Source of the DNA: Natronogracilivirga saccharolytica
GTDB lineage: Bacteria; Bacteroidota; Rhodothermia; Balneolales; Natronogracilivirgulaceae
Direction: 5' to 3'
DNA: 64,000 bases
NCBI RefSeq assembly: GCF_017921895.1
Contig: NZ_JAFIDN010000003.1
Span: 186,001 to 250,000 of the forward strand
Part shown: positions 33,341 through 63,149 of the stretch, piece by piece
Numbering within the stretch: the first letter of the stretch is position 1
Layout of the letters: each line of letters starts with the position of its first letter
Program-made: the position numbers and the translations under genes
The notes under the pieces: model-generated
Seen by the model: only the letters and a program-made list of their open reading frames with translations
The model's database searches: none
What the model was told of the DNA's origin: nothing

Positions 33341-33394
33341 GATTATTCCTCATTTACATTTCTGTTTTTTCTGAAAATCGTTGGTCAGCAACGA

Positions 33395-33650
33395 TTTGCA
33401 ATGCCAGGTCGATACTATTTAATTATTTTTTGTGATGTCAAGACGATGTACTTCATTGATTTTTGTGATGCAGAGCCGATGCATTTCAATGATATTTGCG
33501 ATGCAGGTCCGATGGTTTTCAATGATATTTGCGATGCAGGTCCGATGGTTTTCAAAGATTTTGTGATGTTAAGCTGATATTTTTTCAAAGATTTTATAAT
33601 TTTGATCCGATGCATTTTAAACATTTTTGATGTCAGGCCGATGCACTTGA
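33395..33650 (-). repeat. 33-bp tandem array abutting the stop of the FtsX gene
   Basis: About eight degenerate units with a 33-base period fill the gap between the second FtsX gene and the ATPase gene. On the plus strand the two best units (about 33495-33560) read TTTGCGATGCAGGTCCGATG then GTTTTCA(A/G)(T/A)GAT(A/T). On the coding strand each unit starts with a piece like the gene tail (ATCANTRA) and contains CATCGGACC. The array starts at the stop codon (33651-33653). Small ORFs within it are repeat artefacts. Confidence 0.85.
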
Positions 33651-34877
33651 TTAGTGATCTTTGGCCGCTTCCAGCGGGTTGATCCGGATTGCTTTAAGTG
33701 CCGGATAAAGCGAGGCAAGAAGGGTTATAAAAATCACCACGAGTAAAATTCCGGTGTACTCGCCGGGTGTGATAATCGGGTAGATGATGTGGTCGAATCC
33801 GATTTCAGCAAAGCCCCGGGCATCGGCAAAAATTTCAAGATTGATGCCGGTATCCCTGAAGTAATACAGGCTTGCCCGCGCCAGAAGCATCCCCGCGACA
33901 GCTCCCGTTATGCTCAGCATGACCGATTCCAGCATGATCATGGTAAATACCCGCAGCCTGCTCATTCCAATGGATATCAGCATCCCGAGTTCGCGCATCC
34001 GCTCAAACAGGGCCATCAGCATGGTGTTGAGAATTCCGAAGGCGAGCGCAATCATGATGATCATCGTAATGATATAGGTCATGCTGCCTCCCATCTGAAC
34101 CATCATGTTGAGTTCCGGAGAAAGCTGACTCCAGGTCTGGGCGTGAATATCCGGGAATTCGTTATTCAGGTCGGATGCCACCGAAGAAGCGCAGGCATCA
34201 TTTTCGAGCATCATCGCAATTTCGTGATACACCGGCTGATCCGACAACAGTGCCAGAAAGTCACCGGAACGGATGAGCACGTTCCGTTTGTCGTAATCAG
34301 CCGAAGCCGACTCGAAAAAACCGGCGATGTTGAACGAGCCGGAGGTGAGCTCGTTATTCACATCCTCAAACGTGAGCACGATGCGGTGTCCGAGGTCCAG
34401 ATTGTGCTCATCGGCCAGTCGCCGGCCGATGATGACGGGGTTTCGCATATCGGTATCCAGATAATCCCCTTCCACCATGTTTTCGTGAAACGTGGTGGTG
34501 CGGTTTTCGGACTCCATGTCGATTCCGCGAATCCTGATACCCGTGGTTTTAACGGGGGACTGCAGCATGCCGTCGGTCAGTACCCGGGATGTATGTGAGG
34601 CGACCCGTTCGTCATCATCCAGCCAGGATGTGATTTTTTCGTGATCAGGAATATACATCCACGAATAGCCTTCGCTCAGAAATTCGGGATGATGAACCTG
34701 AACGTGGGTAAGTTCGCTGTCAATGACGTGGTCTGTGCGTTGCTGGATCATGCCGTTCATTGTGCCAACGGCCATGACACCGGCCCACAAGCCGATAATT
34801 ATGGCGGCCAGTAGCACCGAGCTCCGTGCCGGGTGGCGCCAGATGTTTCTCCAGGATATGGTTAATAATGTTTTCAT
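33651..34877 (-). CDS. FtsX-family ABC permease (second)
   Basis: This 408-residue protein has the MacB/LolC-E type layout. One N-terminal membrane helix (about residues 17-38) begins after ISWRNIWRHPARSS, a long periplasmic domain spans about 40-265, and three C-terminal helices follow, with MLMALFERMRELGMLISIGM between them. It pairs with the permease at 34927-36147. With the ATPase and LolA-like protein it forms a Lol- or Mac-type system. The 33-base repeat array begins right at its stop codon. Confidence 0.9.
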   Translation of the reverse strand: MKTLLTISWRNIWRHPARSSVLLAAIIIGLWAGVMAVGTMNGMIQQRTDHVIDSELTHVQVHHPEFLSEGYSWMYIPDHEKITSWLDDDERVASHTSRVLTDGMLQSPVKTTGIRIRGIDMESENRTTTFHENMVEGDYLDTDMRNPVIIGRRLADEHNLDLGHRIVLTFEDVNNELTSGSFNIAGFFESASADYDKRNVLIRSGDFLALLSDQPVYHEIAMMLENDACASSVASDLNNEFPDIHAQTWSQLSPELNMMVQMGGSMTYIITMIIMIALAFGILNTMLMALFERMRELGMLISIGMSRLRVFTMIMLESVMLSITGAVAGMLLARASLYYFRDTGINLEIFADARGFAEIGFDHIIYPIITPGEYTGILLVVIFITLLASLYPALKAIRINPLEAAKDH

Positions 34878-34926
34878 AAGTTTGTATTGTTAGAAGGCAT
34901 AAAATGCCGGGCATGTTACACTCTGA

Positions 34927-36147
34927 TTACTTTCTTGCTGCTTCAAGGACATTTAATCTCATTACCTTTATCAGTGGAAACAGGAACACTACTATTGCGA
35001 TCAGGAAGACGAAGAATCCCTGTGTGTAGAACTGATCGGCGGCAAAGGACATCGGCAGGACGGGTTCAAAACCGAAATCTATTACGGCCTGGGCGGCATC
35101 GCCGCTGAGTGCAATGGGATCCATCCACTTGAGAATCAGCCAGGCGGCAGCAACGCCGGCAAGCGAGCCCAGGATGCTGATGAACAGGGTTTCCAGAAAC
35201 AGAACCGCTGCCAGTCTGCCTCGCTTCATCCCGACGGAGATCAGTACACCGAATTCGCGGAGGCGCTCCATGGTCATGGTGAGGATGGTGCCGAGGAATC
35301 CGAACCCGATCACGATATACAGTACGAGCGTAAAAAAGCGGGGACCAGCCAGGTCCATTTCCATCAGATCAAGCAGTTCGGGCATCAGCTCCGGCCAGGT
35401 GAATACGACCAGTTCGCTGTCTTTGCCTTCAAATTCGCTCTTGAGCGACGAGGCCACCCGGTTGGTTTGCCGTTCCTGCTCCGGGTTGATCATCAGTTTG
35501 CTGATGTATCCTTCGGCGGAGAGCAGTTCCTGCGAGGCCGGCAATGACAGGTACACTACCTGGTTATTCAGCTCCCGCATCGGGTGTTCGACGATGCCGC
35601 TGATCTCAAACAGCGCGCTTGCCGACATGCCGAACCGGCCCTGACCAATCAGTGCCAGAGTATCGCCGACTTCAAGCTGAAGACGTCTTGCCAGACCCTC
35701 GCCTAACACCGTTTTTCGTTCGTCAATACCGAAAAACCGTCCATCCTTCAGGTAGTTCTTGATTTCATTGACTTCGTGCTCGTTCTCCGGTTCAATACCG
35801 AACACAGCCGCACCCCGTGTGGATTCGTCATTGGCGGCCAGCATGAATGTTTCAATTCGCGGCAGGATGCTGACGATGCGGTCATCTGCGGCTGCCACAC
35901 GCTCCCGCATTTCCTCGTCAAAATAAAAGGTGTTGTCGAGCGAGGCCTCATCGTCGTAACGATAATCCTGAATCTGAAGATAGCCGGTGTTGAAATTCAC
36001 CATCCGGTCGATCATCAGTTCATAGCTGCCGCGGTTAACCGATTGCATCACAACCGCTGCCATCACCGCAAACACAATAGCAGAGACCGTAATCAGTGTG
36101 CGGCGTTTGTTTCTCCAGATATTTCTCCAGGCAAGTTTAAGATACAT
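34927..36147 (-). CDS. FtsX-family ABC permease (first)
   Basis: This 406-residue protein begins MYLKLAWRNIWRNKRRTLIT, with one N-terminal helix, a periplasmic domain (about 45-270) and three C-terminal helices containing MTMERLREFGVLISVGMKRG. It is a paralogue of the following permease and probably forms a heterodimer with it. The start codon lies only a few bases from the left inverted-repeat arm of the four-helix-bundle cassette, so transcription from the LolA-like gene must cross that insertion. Confidence 0.9.
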   Translation of the reverse strand: MYLKLAWRNIWRNKRRTLITVSAIVFAVMAAVVMQSVNRGSYELMIDRMVNFNTGYLQIQDYRYDDEASLDNTFYFDEEMRERVAAADDRIVSILPRIETFMLAANDESTRGAAVFGIEPENEHEVNEIKNYLKDGRFFGIDERKTVLGEGLARRLQLEVGDTLALIGQGRFGMSASALFEISGIVEHPMRELNNQVVYLSLPASQELLSAEGYISKLMINPEQERQTNRVASSLKSEFEGKDSELVVFTWPELMPELLDLMEMDLAGPRFFTLVLYIVIGFGFLGTILTMTMERLREFGVLISVGMKRGRLAAVLFLETLFISILGSLAGVAAAWLILKWMDPIALSGDAAQAVIDFGFEPVLPMSFAADQFYTQGFFVFLIAIVVFLFPLIKVMRLNVLEAARK

Positions 36148-36149
36148 AG

Positions 36150-36798
36150 CCAGTTATCAGTTATCAGTATACAGTGATCAGTTATCAGTTGACAGTAAGC
36201 AGTTTTCAGATGCGAAAGTGTGAAGTAATTACTTTTTATCTGTGTTGGTGTAAGGTTGAACAGGTAGAAAACTCTTATGGGTATCAGCATTTAACGGATT
36301 ATACCTGGACATAACAGTTCACACTCAGACTTGGTGAAAATGGATAATAATTTGTATGAGAAAGCATATTCGTTTTCTATTCGCATTGTCAGGTTGTATC
36401 ATTATTTAAGCAAAGAGAAACGTGAGTTTGTTATATCCAGACAGGTTTTGCGTTCGGGAACATCGATTGGTGCAAATGTAGCTGAGGCCAACGGGGCCAT
36501 ATCCGTTTCAGATTTTTCAGCTAAAATCTCTATTGCATACAAGGAGTGCCTCGAAACGAAGTATTGGCTGTGTTTGCTTAAGGATACCGGAATCATCACT
36601 AAACCCTCATATAATTCGATTTACAATAATGCTGACGAACTTGGCAAAATCCTTTTTTCCATTCTCAGAACTACCAGAATCAGTTGCCAGTGATCATTAC
36701 AGTTGTCAGTTATCAGTGATCAGTGAGATAATTTGAAGTAGTCAGATGATGGTTAGTGTTTGCTGGTTACTGTTAACTGATAACTGTTCACTGTTTCA
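36150..36798. mobile_element. Four-helix-bundle cassette bounded by inverted CAGTTATCAGT-type repeats
   Basis: The 650-base gap between the LolA-like gene and the first FtsX gene is filled by a plus-strand four-helix-bundle gene (36331-36693) flanked by repeat arms. The left arm (36150-36209) holds CAGTTATCAGTTATCAG, CAGTGATCAGTTATCAGTTG and CAGTAAGCAG. The right arm (about 36697-36798) holds CAGTTGTCAGTTATCAGTG and TTAACTGATAACTGTTCAC. CAGTTATCAGTT on the left is the inverse of AACTGATAACTG on the right. The arms run exactly up to the flanking genes. No transposase is present, so any mobility would be non-autonomous. Confidence 0.6.
36331..36693 (+). CDS. Four-helix-bundle protein (S23/IVS-type)
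   Basis: This 120-residue protein begins MDNNLYEKAYSFSIRIVRLY (with an MVK lead) and includes the family signature RQVLRSGTSIGANVAEANGA and ECLETKYWLCLL. It belongs to the four-helix-bundle family first found in intervening sequences of 23S rRNA and related to the Avd accessory protein of diversity-generating retroelements. It is opposite in strand to the operon it interrupts. Length is usual for the family (about 115-125). No reverse transcriptase or rRNA gene is nearby; the function of free-standing copies is unknown. Confidence 0.9.
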   Translation: MVKMDNNLYEKAYSFSIRIVRLYHYLSKEKREFVISRQVLRSGTSIGANVAEANGAISVSDFSAKISIAYKECLETKYWLCLLKDTGIITKPSYNSIYNNADELGKILFSILRTTRISCQ

Positions 36799-37554
36799 CT
36801 GAACTCTTTGCATATTTCTCTGGGTGAAGAATCCCTCGTCAATGTCGACATCGAACTCCAGGTGCTGATAGGTCAGAATGGTGCGTTCGTTGTCTTTGCC
36901 GGCGGGGATTACGGTAATGCGGGCAGGGATTTCGCGATCACCGAACCGGGTGACCTGATCCAGTTTCATGGTGTTTACCAGCTCATTGCGCTGATCGTAA
37001 TTTTCCAGGCGGAGCTGTATGTAACTCTGTGTGCAGACCCACATTTTGACTTTTCCCCAGACAATCGGGGTGTCCGGTTTGGGGATCATTTCGATTACAT
37101 ACGCTTCGCGGCCTTCATATTCTTCGGTTCGCAAAAGCTCGTGCTCGTAATCCTCTATGATATCACTGTCCCGGACAAGGTCATCATTGGTGAAATCCGA
37201 ACCCATCCACGATTGTGCCATCATGGAAGAGGGCATGCGCGTGGTGCGGTCGATGCGTGGGTCGTAATTCCATATATCACTGCCGCGCATTAAATAAGCA
37301 GTGCCCTCATCGCGTGACGGAGCGGTAATGACGATCATCGAGTGGTCACGGCCATACTGCCATGAGCGCATGGATACTTCACGCTCATATCGGGGACGCT
37401 CGATTTTCATGGTCATTTCGGCCTCGTTGGAATTTCCGCGCATCACCTGCTCCATGCGGTCGAGAATTTCAGCCGGATCCGGGTCTGAAGCCTGCAGTGT
37501 TGTCGCCATCAGCAGACCTGCAAACAGGGATAAGATGGATATTTTCAGTTTCAT
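36796..37554 (-). CDS. LolA-like outer-membrane lipoprotein-sorting protein
   Basis: The 252-residue protein has a signal peptide (ending TLQAS, about residue 23). PAEILDRMEQVMRG and EMTMKIERPRYEREVSMRSW follow, with a LolA-like half-barrel, DIWNYDPRIDRTTRMPSSMM, and W-GKVKMWV. It matches the outer-membrane lipoprotein-sorting protein family (LolA fold) rather than LolA itself. It is the first gene of the operon, 243 bases after tetR, with a TetR-type operator upstream. I infer that it shuttles a hydrophobic cargo from the FtsX permeases to the outer-membrane partner. Confidence 0.85.
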   Translation of the reverse strand: MKLKISILSLFAGLLMATTLQASDPDPAEILDRMEQVMRGNSNEAEMTMKIERPRYEREVSMRSWQYGRDHSMIVITAPSRDEGTAYLMRGSDIWNYDPRIDRTTRMPSSMMAQSWMGSDFTNDDLVRDSDIIEDYEHELLRTEEYEGREAYVIEMIPKPDTPIVWGKVKMWVCTQSYIQLRLENYDQRNELVNTMKLDQVTRFGDREIPARITVIPAGKDNERTILTYQHLEFDVDIDEGFFTQRNMQRVQ

Positions 37555-37599
37555 AATGATATTGCTGTTATTGAGTTTTTGTTTTTAAATATACGGTTT

Positions 37600-37620
37600 G
37601 ACCAACCACTTGGTTGACTG
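37600..37620 (-). promoter_or_regulatory. TetR-type operator upstream of the LolA-like gene
   Basis: AACCA-CT-TGGTT at 37604-37615 is a perfect 5-base inverted repeat with a 2-base centre, extended by C and G on each side. It lies 46 bases before the start codon. A near-consensus -7 box (TATATTTA on the minus strand, 37593-37586) lies just downstream. The same AACCA-N2-TGGTT pattern occurs upstream of tetR. Confidence 0.6.
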
Positions 37621-37649
37621 CGGGTTTGACTGCGCTTAATAATCTTGCA

Positions 37650-37808
37650 GCCGCCAATCCTGTCCATCATGTCAAATATCAGTCAGCAAATCCGGTGCAT
37701 TATGTTATTTAAGAGTCAGTCAATCCGGTCCATTATGTTATTTATCAGTCAGCTAATCCTGTCCATTATGTTATTTAAAAGTTAGCCAATAGTCGTTTTA
37801 TTTATCAG
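37650..37808 (-). repeat. 33-bp tandem array running into the tetR stop codon
   Basis: Four exact 33-base periods (37650-37682, 37683-37715, 37716-37748, 37749-37781) and a shortened fifth unit (37782-37808) lie head to tail. On the coding strand each unit begins like the tetR tail (CTGATAAATAA) and contains ATGGACCGGAT or a close variant. The last unit covers the final codons and stop of tetR, so the array seems to have grown from the end of the gene. Confidence 0.88.
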
Positions 37809-38475
37809 TCATACGTTGTTCGTAGTATTCCGGTTTCATCAGGATGCGGAAAGCGTGATCCACCACTTCTTTTTTGCGCTCTTCCACAAACTTCCGGTAC
37901 TCTTCCTCATTCAGCCGGAAGGCCTGCATTAAGGTATTCCTGGCAATGATGGGGTATACACACATCCCGATCAGGGAAACAGAAAAATGTTCGGGATTTA
38001 CAGGGTTGTACCTGCCCTCTTTTTGCCCTTCTTCAATCTGCCGAATCATCGTCATGGCGCGCATATCGTCATGATCGGCGTCATCTGATTCGGATAACGG
38101 GGCGTATTTCCGGGTGATGGCAAGCAACCGGTCCGGATTTCTGGCAATTTCGTACATCAGAAACAGCGGAAGCTGCGGGTTGGCGGCCATGACATCAATA
38201 TACCTTTGCACAAACAATTTGATCATATCTTCCACATGAATGGAAGGGTCACGCGTAATTTGTATGATCGGTGCAAGTTGAGTGATGAAATCTTCTTCAA
38301 ATACCTCCTGGAACAACCTCTCCTTGCTCCGGTAATAATAATGCAGCATCGCTTTGTTGATATTGGCTTCATCAGCGATGGCCTGCATGCGGGCACCTTC
38401 CAGCCCTTCACGGTGAAACACCCTGCGGGCGGCTTCTTTTATTTGCTGTTCGGTATTGTTGTCTTTTTGAGCCAT
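37798..38475 (-). CDS. TetR-family transcriptional repressor
   Basis: This 225-residue protein has an N-terminal TetR helix-turn-helix, IKEAARRVFHREGLEGARMQ, then IADEANINKAMLHYYYRSKE (about residues 12-52), and a helical ligand-binding domain. It lies upstream of the LolA-like/FtsX operon in the same orientation. Palindromes AACCA-N2-TGGTT occur in its own promoter and before the LolA-like gene, so it likely represses both itself and the operon until a ligand binds. Its last codons lie within a 33-base repeat unit. Confidence 0.9.
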   Translation of the reverse strand: MAQKDNNTEQQIKEAARRVFHREGLEGARMQAIADEANINKAMLHYYYRSKERLFQEVFEEDFITQLAPIIQITRDPSIHVEDMIKLFVQRYIDVMAANPQLPLFLMYEIARNPDRLLAITRKYAPLSESDDADHDDMRAMTMIRQIEEGQKEGRYNPVNPEHFSVSLIGMCVYPIIARNTLMQAFRLNEEEYRKFVEERKKEVVDHAFRILMKPEYYEQRMTDK

Positions 38476-38527
38476 TTATAATTTCGTGGTAATAAAGTAG
38501 TTAACTAAAGGGATAATCTGAATGATA

Positions 38528-38610
38528 TAACTAAATGGTTAAAACAAATATATTGCCCTGCTGCGCGTTTGTCAAGAGGTTTAACCAAATAATTTTACCA
38601 TATGGTTAAA
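38528..38610 (-). promoter_or_regulatory. tetR promoter with multiple operator-like sites
   Basis: On the minus strand TTGAC (38575-38571) and TATATTTG (38552-38545), 18 bases apart, fit a -33/-7 promoter. Around it lie AACTA-AA-TGGTT (38529-38540), AACCA-AA-TAATT (38583-38594) and TACCA-TA-TGGTT (38596-38607). The first overlaps the start of transcription and the other two are upstream of the -33 box, consistent with autoregulation by TetR. Confidence 0.55.
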
Positions 38611-38727
38611 TTTGTGCCGGGTTATATTGCGAGATGTTATATTGCGGACAAAATATCACACGCAATCAGCAGTTAATTACTTTTGTCAATTAAAAATCAG
38701 CAACTACTGGCACCTGCCGAACAAAAT

Positions 38728-38913
38728 ACATCCAACAAATCAAAAGGCATCCGGTATATCAATAGACACCCGATAAACAAATTACATCCGGTATATCAAT
38801 AGGCACCCGATAAACAAATTACATCCGGTATATCAATAGGCACCCGATAAACAAAATACACCCGGTGTATCAATAGGCACCCGGTAGGTAAAAAGACATC
38901 CAACATATCAACA
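38728..38913 (+). repeat. Minisatellite of about 37 bp in the leader of the DUF3347 lipoprotein gene
   Basis: About five units lie head to tail. The clearest consists of ACATCCGGTATATCAATAGG followed by CACCCGATAAACAAATT, 37 bases. Each unit is itself two related halves of 18-19 bases (CAyCCGrTAwAyCAAwwr). There are no unique spacers. The array ends 25 bases before the ATG at 38939. Between the tetR promoter and this array the only other signal is a 15-base duplication GTTATATTGCGAGAT/GTTATATTGCGGACA at 38621-38649 and a possible -7 box TACTTTTG at 38678-38685. Confidence 0.85.
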
Positions 38914-38962
38914 CACACCAAACCAAATACAGAAATTCATGTTACTCAGGTTACCTTGCGCA

Positions 38963-39553
38963 ATGAAATTTGTTTCCCTTATGCTGCTGGTCTTCATCTT
39001 CCATGGCTGCAAAGATGACGGCAATGAACACCCTCCGGGAGAAATGCCGGAAGAGTCAGCTCATGAGGAAGCCGGCCCGGATATGCAGGAAGAATCAGCG
39101 GAAACTGCTCTTGAAGACACTGCTGCTGAACGTTTTGACTCGGTGCTGGAGGAATATCTGGCTCTGACCGACGCCCTGGTAGCATCCGATACTGAAAGGG
39201 CGGCTTCAAACTCTGAACTGTTCTATGACGCCGTGCAATCGTTTCAGCAAACCGATATCGATGCTTCACTGCGGGCTGATGTGGGAATCCTGAACATGAC
39301 GCTGCTTGAAATGAGTGACATCATCACCGGCAGCACAGATATTGAGGAACAGCGGGGTGCCTATGAAACGCTGTCGGAAACCATGATAGCCATGGTTCAA
39401 CGGCTGGGCCATCAGCGCGATACCCTCTATCATCAGCGCTGTCCGATGGTCAATGACGGCGATGGCGACTGGCTCAGCACAAAGGAGGAGATCCGAAACC
39501 CCTACCACGGTGACCGGATGATGAACTGCGGGTCGACGGTGCAGCAGCTTTAG
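38963..39553 (+). CDS. DUF3347-like lipoprotein
   Basis: From the ATG at 38963 the protein has about 196 residues, with a lipoprotein-like leader MKFVSLMLLVFIFHGC (lipid cysteine about residue 16). A long acidic linker (about 17-60) follows, then a helical domain ending YHQRCPMVNDGDGDWLSTKE, EIRNPY and MMNCGST. This tail matches the DUF3347 domain of the CusB-like and secreted proteins at 15-17.7 kb, although the helical part is more diverged. An ATG at 38939 would add eight residues. The metal-ligand-like residues are conserved, so copper binding is inferred. It is divergent from tetR. Confidence 0.75.
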   Translation: MKFVSLMLLVFIFHGCKDDGNEHPPGEMPEESAHEEAGPDMQEESAETALEDTAAERFDSVLEEYLALTDALVASDTERAASNSELFYDAVQSFQQTDIDASLRADVGILNMTLLEMSDIITGSTDIEEQRGAYETLSETMIAMVQRLGHQRDTLYHQRCPMVNDGDGDWLSTKEEIRNPYHGDRMMNCGSTVQQL

Positions 39554-39578
39554 GTCCGGACATGCACTTCATGCGTTA

Positions 39579-39665
39579 TGCCGGGGCACACATAATCGTA
39601 AACCCCGGTCCACAGTGTCACAAATCGTCCAGCAACCCGGTTCATCCTGTCACAAATCGTCCAGC
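39579..39665 (-). repeat. 32-33-bp tandem array running into the stop of the TPR gene
   Basis: Two clear units (39601-39633 and 39634-39665) and a diverged third (39579-39600) lie in tandem. On the coding strand each contains GCTGGACGATTTGTGA, the end of the TPR gene with its stop, followed by a GGACCGGGGTT-like part. The GGACC core recurs in the tetR and FtsX arrays. Confidence 0.85.
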
Positions 39666-40444
39666 ATCTCGCGCATATTATCTTTCCAGCGCTCATCGTC
39701 ACTGGTAAGAATTTCCTGTTGGAGTCCCTTTTCCAGTGACTGACGGGCCTTGTCTTCTTCTCCGATGGTCAGATAGAATTCTGCCTGGTCATGATAGTAT
39801 AGAACGTACTGCGGGTCCAGCTCAATGGCTTTTTTGAAGGCTTCGCGGGCGCTGTCGTTACTGGCACCTTCCGGGGCTCCTCCAAATAACGCATTGGCAG
39901 CCAGGCGCTCCATGCGCGACAGGTTTGCCGCACGATGGTGCCATACGCCCAGTACATTCCATGCGCGGGAGTATTCAGGGTCCAGTTCTACCGCTTTTTC
40001 GGCGTGTTCGCGGATTTCCGTGGATAATCTCAGTCGCTCTCTAGCCCCTGCACTCTGGGCTTTCCTGCCGACAGCGGCGGAATAGGCGAAGTGCGATGCG
40101 GCACTGTCAGGGTAGGCCTCGAGCATTTTTTTGGCAAGCTCGTGGGCCTGCTCATAATGTGCTTCCTCATCCCTGCTTCGGCTCTGGCGGTTTCCGATTG
40201 AGGTGTGCAGTATAACGGCATTCCACAGTGCTTCAAAGTGCTGCTCGTCCTCTTCAAGAACTTCTTCAAATGCCTTCAGGGCCTCTTCGTCCTTGAAGTC
40301 ATTTTTCAGCTCCATGGCATGTTTAAGCTTTTCTTCAGAACCGGACTTTGCAGCAAGTGAAGTTTGCGGAAAAAATGCGGAAACTCCGGCCACCAGCAAG
40401 GTCAGCATCAGATACGTGAATAATTTGAGTGAAAGTGTTTTCAT
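39650..40444 (-). CDS. TPR-repeat protein, periplasmic
   Basis: With the ATG at 40444 the protein has 264 residues and a signal peptide MKTLSLKLFTYLMLTLLVAG ending near TSLAAKS; an upstream ATG at 40462 adds six residues. Several tetratricopeptide-like helices follow: EALKAFEEVLEEDEQHFEAL, HAEKAVELDPEYSRAWNVLG and AFKKAIELDPQYVLYYHDQA. Such proteins act as scaffolds; no partner is identifiable. Its stop codon lies in a tandem repeat. Confidence 0.85.
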   Translation of the reverse strand: MKTLSLKLFTYLMLTLLVAGVSAFFPQTSLAAKSGSEEKLKHAMELKNDFKDEEALKAFEEVLEEDEQHFEALWNAVILHTSIGNRQSRSRDEEAHYEQAHELAKKMLEAYPDSAASHFAYSAAVGRKAQSAGARERLRLSTEIREHAEKAVELDPEYSRAWNVLGVWHHRAANLSRMERLAANALFGGAPEGASNDSAREAFKKAIELDPQYVLYYHDQAEFYLTIGEEDKARQSLEKGLQQEILTSDDERWKDNMREMLDDL

Positions 40445-40469
40445 TGAAAGTATCAGGCTCATATTTATA

Positions 40470-47853: not shown

Positions 47854-49908
47854 ATGAATATCCAAAAAAACGCACAGAATCGGATGGACCAGGCCAGCAA
47901 TGAGATTCGGAACCGTCTGGTCCGGGAGAAAAGTCCGGACATGAATGCCATACTGCACCTGCTTGGCAAATCCGTGTCCGCCGACAGGATTTGCGTATGC
48001 CTCTTTCCGCTTGAAAGTGACCATAATAACAGCACCAGAGAGCTTTACCATTGGGAGTCCGGTTCCTGGAAAAGCAAAAACAGCAGTAATAAACCTGAGG
48101 ACTTTGAGTGGTGGAATGATTCGGTTTTTGACGGAGAGCACGTATTGTGCGAGGACACGGCGAAACTGCAGCCCGGTGAAGGGCCGGACGTGACCATGGT
48201 CAGGGCCGCTGGTGTGCGGTCACTTGCAGCATATCCTTTTCGTTCGGAGGAAACCGGATACACGGGTATTATTGAACTGAACTGGGTGGAACCGGATTTT
48301 GGCGGCACGGATCCGGATCTGAATGCACTGGCCATGATCGTTGAAATGGTCTCGTCGCACATCATCCGGTCCCAGGCGGAGGAGAAGCTTCGGAGGAGTG
48401 AAAGCCGTTTTCGAAGCCTGATTCAGAAAAGCTCGGATATCGTAGCAGTTCTGGGACTTGACCGGAAATTCATGTACGTCAGCCCGTCGGTGAAGAAAGT
48501 CCTGGGCTACGAAGAAGATGAGCTGCTTCAGTCCGATGCGTTTTCCTTCATTCATGAACAGGATCTGCCGGATGTTGAAAAAGCTTTTGATCAGGTCAGG
48601 CAGAAACCTGAAAGCGATATTATTGCTGAATACCGTTTTCAGCACAAAAAAGGGCACTGGGTCTATCTGGAATCGGTGGGATATGATATGACGGATGATC
48701 CCGATCTGGGAGGGATCGTTATAAACTCAAGGGACATCAGTGATCGCAAAAAAGCCCAGCAGCAATTGATCAAGGCCAGGGATCTTGCCGAAGATATTAA
48801 CCGGGTCAAAACGGCCCTTCTGGCCAACATGAGCCATGAGATGCGCACACCACTTACCGGAATTCTGGGCTTCGCCAGCATTCTGGAGTCAGACATTGAA
48901 GACCCGGAGCATCGGAAAATGGCGGGAAGAATTCAAAGCAGCGGCCGGCGGCTGCTTGAAACCATTGAATCGATCCTGGACCTTGCCCGGCTGGAAGCCG
49001 AACAGGTGGATATCCATCCCGAGGAGGTCAATATCATTGATGAGGTCTCCCGTGCGATGGACATGCACATACGAACTGCGGAACACAAAGGACTTTCTTT
49101 TGAAGTGAAAAGCGAATTTGATCGGTTGCCGGTGCATGTCGACCGTCAGCTGTTCAACAGGGTGCTTTACAATCTGCTCTCCAATGCATTCAAATACACC
49201 GATCGGGGCAAAGTTTCGGTCATCGTTTCCGTTGCTGATGATCAATACGGCAAATGGCTTCAGGTGGATGTCAAGGATACCGGAGTGGGGATAGAAAAAG
49301 AGTTTCTGCCCAAAGCGTTTGAGGAGTTTCAGCAGGAAAGCACCGGGTTTTCCCGCAAATTTGAAGGTACCGGCCTGGGTCTCACCATTTCAAGACGTCT
49401 GGTGGAGATCATGGGCGGCACCATTACCGCAGAAAGTGAGAAGAACAAGGGCTCCACGTTCACAATTCGCCTTCCTTACAAAGACAGTATCCAGATCCAG
49501 AGGGATATTGCGGAAAAGGTTCCCGCAGAGCCGCAGGAAGATCCTGCACGGCCCCGTATTTTGCTGGTTGAGGATGATTTTGACAGCTCCGACATCACCA
49601 GTCTTTACCTTGGAAGCAAGTATGATGTTTCGGCGGTGGATACGGGTGAGCGTGCACTTGAAATACTCCGGCAGCATACCTTTGATCTTGTGATCATGGA
49701 TATCAGTCTGGGTACGGGCATGGACGGAGTGGATACACTCAAAGCTATGAAGAACAACCCCGTCCTTGCGAAAATCCCGGCCATTGCACTGACCGCCCAC
49801 GCGCTTAGCGGAGATGAAGAATATTATCTCTCACAGGGATTTACGGGATACCTTGCAAAGCCGTTCAAGAAGAACGAGCTGATGAAGCTGGTGGGGCAGT
49901 ACGTCTGA
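47854..49908 (+). CDS. Soluble hybrid sensor histidine kinase (GAF-PAS-HisKA-HATPase-REC)
   Basis: The 684-residue protein has in order a GAF-like domain (about 30-175), a PAS domain (SRFRSLIQKSSDIVAVLGLD, about 180-300) with a PAC tail, and HisKA with phospho-acceptor His328 in MSHEMRTPLTG. A HATPase domain follows (about 435-540; N box NAFKYTDRG, DTGVGIEK, GTGLGL), then a receiver domain (about 566-684) with phospho-acceptor Asp616. No membrane helix is present, so it senses cytosolic signals. It lacks an adjacent separate response regulator. A short tandem repeat begins right at its stop. Confidence 0.92.
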   Translation: MNIQKNAQNRMDQASNEIRNRLVREKSPDMNAILHLLGKSVSADRICVCLFPLESDHNNSTRELYHWESGSWKSKNSSNKPEDFEWWNDSVFDGEHVLCEDTAKLQPGEGPDVTMVRAAGVRSLAAYPFRSEETGYTGIIELNWVEPDFGGTDPDLNALAMIVEMVSSHIIRSQAEEKLRRSESRFRSLIQKSSDIVAVLGLDRKFMYVSPSVKKVLGYEEDELLQSDAFSFIHEQDLPDVEKAFDQVRQKPESDIIAEYRFQHKKGHWVYLESVGYDMTDDPDLGGIVINSRDISDRKKAQQQLIKARDLAEDINRVKTALLANMSHEMRTPLTGILGFASILESDIEDPEHRKMAGRIQSSGRRLLETIESILDLARLEAEQVDIHPEEVNIIDEVSRAMDMHIRTAEHKGLSFEVKSEFDRLPVHVDRQLFNRVLYNLLSNAFKYTDRGKVSVIVSVADDQYGKWLQVDVKDTGVGIEKEFLPKAFEEFQQESTGFSRKFEGTGLGLTISRRLVEIMGGTITAESEKNKGSTFTIRLPYKDSIQIQRDIAEKVPAEPQEDPARPRILLVEDDFDSSDITSLYLGSKYDVSAVDTGERALEILRQHTFDLVIMDISLGTGMDGVDTLKAMKNNPVLAKIPAIALTAHALSGDEEYYLSQGFTGYLAKPFKKNELMKLVGQYV

Positions 49909-49943
49909 GACGATTGTCAGAGACGATTGTCAGAGACGATTGT
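49907..49943 (+). repeat. 13-bp tandem repeat starting at the kinase stop codon
   Basis: GAGACGATTGTCA is repeated at 49907-49919, 49920-49932 and partly at 49933-49943. The first copy includes the last two bases of the TGA stop of the kinase gene (49906-49908). The repeats fill most of the space before the convergent mgtE stop. Confidence 0.85.
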
Positions 49944-62800: not shown

Positions 62801-62995
62801 AAGCCCGAATCTCGGAAAGGTCCGGAACAGGGTGTAGGATATGCGCTCAATCTGAACGTCCCTGCCGGTAGCTTCCTGAATTTCCGGGAGAACCCACGAC
62901 CGCAGGCGCTCATCGGTCAGATACAGCGAAAGACCTCCGATCAGAATGACGATGACCAGCAAAAAAATACCGAGAACCAGGGCAACCTTTTTCAT
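59888..62995 (-). CDS. Large AsmA-family envelope protein
   Basis: From the ATG at 62995 the protein has 1035 residues: one N-terminal membrane helix (KKVALVLGIFLLVIVILIGG) followed by a very long periplasmic part. AsmA features include ITLFRTFPRFGLVIENLEV-type N-terminal text and many repeats of the form F(N/D)(L)-(D/E)--(L/I)-DGFI-H. The C-terminal AsmA region has GIMRLDNFNLTSRDLGLNLS. Such proteins form hydrophobic bridges or regulate outer-membrane assembly and lipid transport. The longer ORF start at 63052 adds 19 unlikely residues. The region is strongly acidic. Confidence 0.85.
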   Translation of the reverse strand: MKKVALVLGIFLLVIVILIGGLSLYLTDERLRSWVLPEIQEATGRDVQIERISYTLFRTFPRFGLVIENLEVPDPREDKLAGVERLLVSVNLIPLIGGEVSVHRLEVNRPEFTYVIYEDGSTNLDDFLPEEEPDEEPEPAELMELDLSEIIVTDAAFGMTDHQTETSVMLSELDIRSALRFTDVLESTMDVSLGSLDVIFEGQRMVSGLGLTLTQTSVLDIEGEQLQLQDGTLNLAGLGLTLEGNISDWGGGEPLVDLNMESESDDFGALLDLVPPEFEEFIADLDTGGELEVMLSLQGRISEDEVPSFEARAGITDGFIQHTDVPDRISGITLSANAVNDLVVIEAFEATAGETRISASGEIRDPLEESAVFDISGSMSADLSTMDRYVPLEEFDITDLAGLIDISAEASGLVWDPENVQFDVSVSFSDGRIAHAEIPRAVEDIIVELQATHQEVSITRATARSSDNYFSATGTLTSPLDLDAATFEATGDVTWDLATVKEYYPIDEDTLEIRGMISFSGSAGGRLDDPENASFDLDLELADGFISYHELGQPIEELTTRVNVTERNVSVSDAAVRSGSNRFSMNGSVRNYMEENAVFDLTINGFLALNEMDTYYPLEDEFGLVMSGSVDSDVRLRGSIDDLEGIRLDGTVEANDISMDSPDLLLPLADLNGAITFRGEDLTTGGITFLFGESDYHITGDIMNFKALMYEPGEASPTRFTGRFRSEFFDADEFLDFEDVPEDPEPFEAWLPNLEGEMEVEIDVLQFFAMEATDITGTVEMSPDHIGSDNARLAIYGGSMDGSFRWDVFAADHTGFTFNGDLQNMRVEELFSHFDLGGQANLAEHVRADFSATTEFYAEFDEYFEMDMMELFADGDFGMDEARISDHPVQEGLAGLLNSDDLRDLSLDTWTADYHIEDGIMRLDNFNLTSRDLGLNLSGTQDLISDELDYRAEIVMPGEWVERLAGTIPREGREALKRDDGMLVLPLTIRGTSESPRPGVDDSKVREAVEDYLRRRAEDEGRDIIDGVLDRFRRN

Positions 62996-63149
62996 GTGTT
63001 TATAATTTATGATTCTGACGTCACATGTAGTACCCATGTTGGCTATAATCATGCTCCTGTGTGACGGTAAGCCGCCATGGGTATTTCATCTGTTTTAAAT
63101 TTTCGATTTATAATGACGTGCACATTTCATGAAAGATAGCGAATAAATG

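Follow-up and report, generated by a model that had tools for sequence, protein, structure and literature searches.

The tandem repeats that follow three genes of Natronogracilivirga saccharolytica are very probably neutral intergenic minisatellites of fast turnover, which arose by tandem duplication and are tolerated where the neighboring gene stays intact. They can be explained without assuming a shared seed, an RNA structure or a function. The window analyzed here, the whole 64-kb stretch of DNA (C3:186001-250000), belongs to a draft genome (G000) of 3.75 Mb in 49 contigs, and the closest named relatives are metagenome assemblies of the Balneolales/Balneolaceae. The three host genes, recognized from their open reading frames and orthologues, all lie on the minus strand and encode an FtsX-like ABC permease (ftsX, 33651..34877), a TetR-family regulator (tetR, 37798..38475) and a TPR-repeat protein (39650..40462).

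Tandem repeats behind ftsX, tetR and the TPR gene

Each of the three repeats beats Markov shuffles, with 0 of 100 shuffles as good for any of them. The first-pass annotation of the window had described tandem units of about 33 bp behind all three genes. Repeats are indeed present at all three loci and the 33-bp period holds at ftsX and tetR, but what had been called an array at the TPR gene is a single duplication of two copies with a unit of 32 bp. The units differ from locus to locus and are not copies of one element, as had been stated: whole-genome DNA and pattern searches found no ftsX, tetR or TPR units elsewhere in the genome beyond chance-level matches with three mismatches, and the same searches ruled out a dispersed repeat family as their source.

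The ftsX array is a degenerate array of about 33 bp per unit (33416..33628, minus strand), recognized by TRF, periodicity and comparison with relatives, that lies between ftsX and an ABC ATPase gene. TRF delimits it to 33427-33568, with a period of 33, 4.3 copies and a score of 114; the periodic stretch is wider, starting 22 bp past the ftsX stop codon and ending 75 bp short of the next start codon. Two central units are identical (CATCGGACCTGCATCGCAAATATCATTGAAAAC). The array is absent in the closest relative (L043/L097); there, with an FtsX of 94% identity, the next start follows the ftsX stop after about 20 bp, compared with 310 bp here. Three further relatives (L108, L111 and L112) have weaker repeats of other kinds behind ftsX. 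A plasmid origin of the array was considered and dropped, as there was no plasmid match. The contig that encodes this close FtsX orthologue (L097, G009:C74, and L043) may be a misbinned or transferred segment; the TetR orthologue of the same genome is 70% identical and is on another contig.

The array behind tetR (37653..37790, minus strand) consists of 4.2 copies of a 33-bp unit of the ACTGATAAATAACATAATGGACCGGATTGACTG type, according to TRF and comparison with relatives. Its periodic stretch begins 7 bp beyond the tetR stop and ends 98 bp short of the next start codon. It was not found in the relatives compared, all from outside the host's genus; one of them, L024, keeps the RMT-x-x-stop ending of TetR and has no array. 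Operator-like palindromes of the AACCAnnTGGTT type lie close to tetR and ahead of the following gene, at 37555-37640 and 38500-38640, and one palindrome copy, AACCAAGTGGTT, is conserved in L024. Upstream of tetR, TRF detects an array of 3.7 copies of a 37-bp unit (38738..38893, minus strand; 38748-38883 by TRF, with 95% matches and an inner half-period near 19 bp), which is more regular than any other array of the region and was missing from the first-pass annotation.

The TPR duplication (39604..39671, minus strand; 39604-39666 by TRF, 32 bp in 2.0 copies) lies across the stop codon of its gene and is documented by TRF, by the tail match and by the relative L167. Behind the same gene in two other genera there are unrelated arrays, at 14 bp (L170) and 18 bp (L172).

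Taken as a kind of sequence, these repeats had been thought to be undescribed. They consist of head-to-tail units within the range of about 10-100 bp, their unit sequence is locus specific and their presence differs among close relatives, all of which places them among minisatellites, and there is no core shared between them. The repeats behind ftsX, tetR and the TPR gene are of an ordinary sequence kind, and it is the rule of their placement that is mildly interesting.

Gene tails as the source of units

It had been proposed that the units at every locus begin with a copy of the tail of the host gene. This is true of two of the three loci. The last 14 nt of tetR (TGACTGATAAATAA, 37798..37811, minus strand) recur exactly inside a unit of the array, a match equaled by 0.1% of 943 other gene tails, and the 17-nt tail of the TPR gene (TGCTGGACGATTTGTGA) is found exactly in the second copy, which none of 943 other gene tails equals. 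The ftsX units are at chance level, their resemblance to the ftsX tail scoring 8, a value matched by 52% of other gene tails. The relative L167 has the identical 18-nt TPR tail, ATGCTGGACGATTTGTGA, followed by unrelated sequence without a duplication; the tail is thus older than the duplication, and at the TPR gene the direction from gene tail to array is shown. The same direction is likely at tetR.

The repeats would have begun with the tandem duplication of a short segment, by replication slippage or by short-homology recombination. Slippage or unequal crossing over may then have added and homogenized units, as the identical central units and degenerate edge units suggest, and point mutations would later erode the arrays. 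When a duplication crosses a stop codon, the first copy would keep the gene complete and the second would become downstream non-coding DNA. A stop-spanning duplication would be tolerated because its first copy leaves the gene complete, and tolerance of this kind would give rise to units that begin with the tail of the host gene. A duplication across a start codon would probably create a spurious start and a shifted promoter and ribosome-binding site, and would rarely be retained. The claim that the gene ends had grown independently is borne out by the locus-specific units and by the own-tail seeds at tetR and the TPR gene; the active process suggested along with it is unsupported.

Placement of arrays across the genome

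We took a census of arrays in 1.26 Mb of this genome, sampled in stretches that amount to about one third of it, using our own hexamer-based gene caller, with which start codons are approximate. Intergenic arrays number 39 in this sample, and their periods run from 12 to 77 bp. A stop codon is spanned by 13 of them and a start codon by one; 25 span neither, which goes against the idea that the arrays are tied to stop codons. The tetR array itself falls in the last class under the strict definition, since its periodic stretch begins 7 bp after the stop. One further stop-spanning array in the window, detected by TRF and the census (49903..49943, no strand assigned), has 3.2 copies of an unrelated 13-bp sequence, GTCAGAGACGATT. 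At three loci on another contig (C5:20572, 62705 and 66244; L077 and L079), genes that end in MMLVK-stop have tandem copies of their own tails past the stop. We take this ending to be that of a type IX secretion sorting domain; arrays that look unrelated can share letters because the gene ends from which they grew are homologous.

If the arrays were placed at random within these intergenic regions, 10.7 would be expected to span a stop and 5.7 a start. The single start-spanning array is significantly fewer than expected (p 0.015), whereas the excess of stop-spanning arrays is not significant (13 versus 10.7, p 0.19), so that the data neither establish nor rule out a mutational preference for seeding at stops. 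Regions between convergent genes make up 9.5% of the intergenic bases and contain 10 of the 39 arrays (p 0.003; p 0.07 when counted by regions). The placement of arrays is mainly an avoidance of start codons, with an enrichment between convergent genes. Two other genomes of the family have three stop-spanning arrays each and no start-spanning ones, which brings the three sampled genomes of the family to 19 stop-spanning arrays against one start-spanning; a genome from another family of the order has none of the former and one of the latter.

Uniform neutrality is opposed by two features of the data, namely that array density differs several-fold between relatives and that the distribution of arrays on the chromosome is clustered (variance/mean 1.9, p 0.0004). 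TRF finds 0.25 arrays per kb of intergenic DNA in this genome and 0.04-0.07 in two relatives (G007 and G028); a more sensitive self-shift method gives, per 100 intergenic regions, 4.9 arrays in this genome and 1.9, 4.4 and 8.9 in three other genomes. A regional mutation process, in which some gene ends would be hot spots of repeat formation beyond what neutral duplication and selection produce, would account for the significant clustering, including five arrays within 6.3 kb, and for a TRF density above that of the two relatives. Clustering could also be caused by low selective constraint or by acquired segments, and no causal gene or motif was found; we regard such hot spots as unlikely.

The GGACC core, reading frame and RNA structure

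The first-pass annotation had the arrays grow from a common seed with a GGACC core. Tested array by array against the remaining intergenic DNA, GGACC is found in six of the 39, where 2.6 are expected, and the arrays that prompted the idea are among the six; the claim is a product of local coincidence. The view that gene ends are extended from one shared seed containing GGACC, by a dedicated element or an active process, could draw on the frequency of the motif, which is 3.1 per kb in arrays and 0.84 per kb in other intergenic DNA, but the first figure counts repeated units. GGACC is present in only some units and is no core across the genome, most other units lack anything of the sort, and periods are not fixed at 33 bp, a length that is exact in three of the 39. 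We consider an element of this sort extremely improbable. Nor does a register of 11 codons explain the 33-bp period, because stop codons interrupt the units in the coding-strand frames of tetR and ftsX and because periods of 32 and 37 bp are found in the same cluster.

By analogy with some repeats in other bacteria, the arrays might be post-transcriptional or termination elements that tune the expression of co-oriented genes. With the ftsX array in place, the gap between two genes of an operon is about 310 bp instead of about 20 bp, and sequence and folding place a hairpin with 9-bp arms, AAATCGTTG-CTGAC-CAACGATTT (33375..33397, minus strand), at the downstream end of this intergenic region; in L024 the tetR gap has a terminator-like hairpin (GAGCCGCCTAAGAGGCTC) that is gone here. 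Against this, the predicted folding of the ftsX and tetR regions is no stronger than that of shuffles (z 1.77 and -0.61), a search for terminator-like sites on the coding strand returned none within the three arrays, and the arrays are not conserved in relatives. Rfam searches gave no family at gathering score, and a sub-threshold match of snoRNA type was discarded as a chance match inside a gene. Expression tuning of this kind is very doubtful, and neutral minisatellites that turn over rapidly remain our preferred reading.

Comparison with known repeats

The arrays most closely resemble bacterial intergenic minisatellites, or VNTR, with which they share locus-specific units of tens of bases, a homogeneous middle with degenerate edges, and absence in relatives. 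They differ from that kind in that a third of them span a stop codon. A search of the literature on stop-overlapping tandem duplications in bacteria returned nothing relevant.

Mycobacterial interspersed repetitive units (MIRUs) in senX3-regX3 have units of 77 bp and 53 bp (PMC4213456), and MIRUs form a single dispersed family, apparently mobile, whose members are described as inserting at start codons (PMC12548453). The likeness consists of tandem units between co-oriented operon genes (PMC4213456, PMC12548453); the arrays here differ from MIRUs in being mutually unrelated and in lying behind stops. DNA and pattern searches revealed no homologous dispersed family among them, and they have no junction at the downstream start codon, which lies 75 bp past the end of the ftsX array and 98 bp past that of the tetR array.

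Degenerate heptamer repeats of the CAGTTATCAGTTATCAG type (CAGTTAT), found by TRF at 36147-36209 and 36679-36801, are likewise short tandem repeats between genes of this region; they differ from the arrays in their 7-bp period and in one sequence being common to several places. They flank a small gene (36331-36693, plus strand), presumably encoding a four-helix-bundle-like protein, which lies between the permease gene and a lipoprotein-sorting-like gene. In L111 and L113 a similar small gene and similar short repeats are found instead in the gap between ftsX and the ABC gene.

A dispersed element at start codons

A separate observation concerns a dispersed element that is about 94-113 bp long and frequently occurs as tandem copies; in the window it lies at 62988-63112 on the minus strand (G000:C3:248988-249112, L205). 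Other copies are L198-L217. This genome has 55 matches, several other genera of the family have tens of them, and the element is present in 11 genomes out of the 21 searched. Its units meet at ATGAAA, and in about half of 20 copies this junction supplies the start codon of the gene downstream. Copies of the best-conserved type open with ATGAAA and contain an open reading frame of 22 codons (MKYPWRLTVTQEHDYSQHGYYM), which ends just before the ATG of the gene; ends that resemble inverted repeats, around CCTTCGGTTCATSTG, are seen in some copies. It has no Rfam match and is MIRU-like in its placement. This element is more interesting than the ftsX, tetR and TPR arrays.

Implications

The count of 19 stop-spanning arrays against one start-spanning array in three genomes of the family could be cited for a bolder proposal, in which tandem duplications arise preferentially at the 3' ends of Balneolaceae genes, for instance as a result of termination or of conflict between replication and transcription. 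If this were true, stop-seeded satellites would be a recognizable mutational signature of the Balneolaceae; we think it quite unlikely. A duplication across a stop codon costs the gene nothing, and satellites that start with the tail of the host gene are thus to be expected, which is a caution against inferring a shared function from tail-seeded satellites. The bias of 19 to 1 is, in addition, a cheap gauge of selection at gene starts compared with gene ends.
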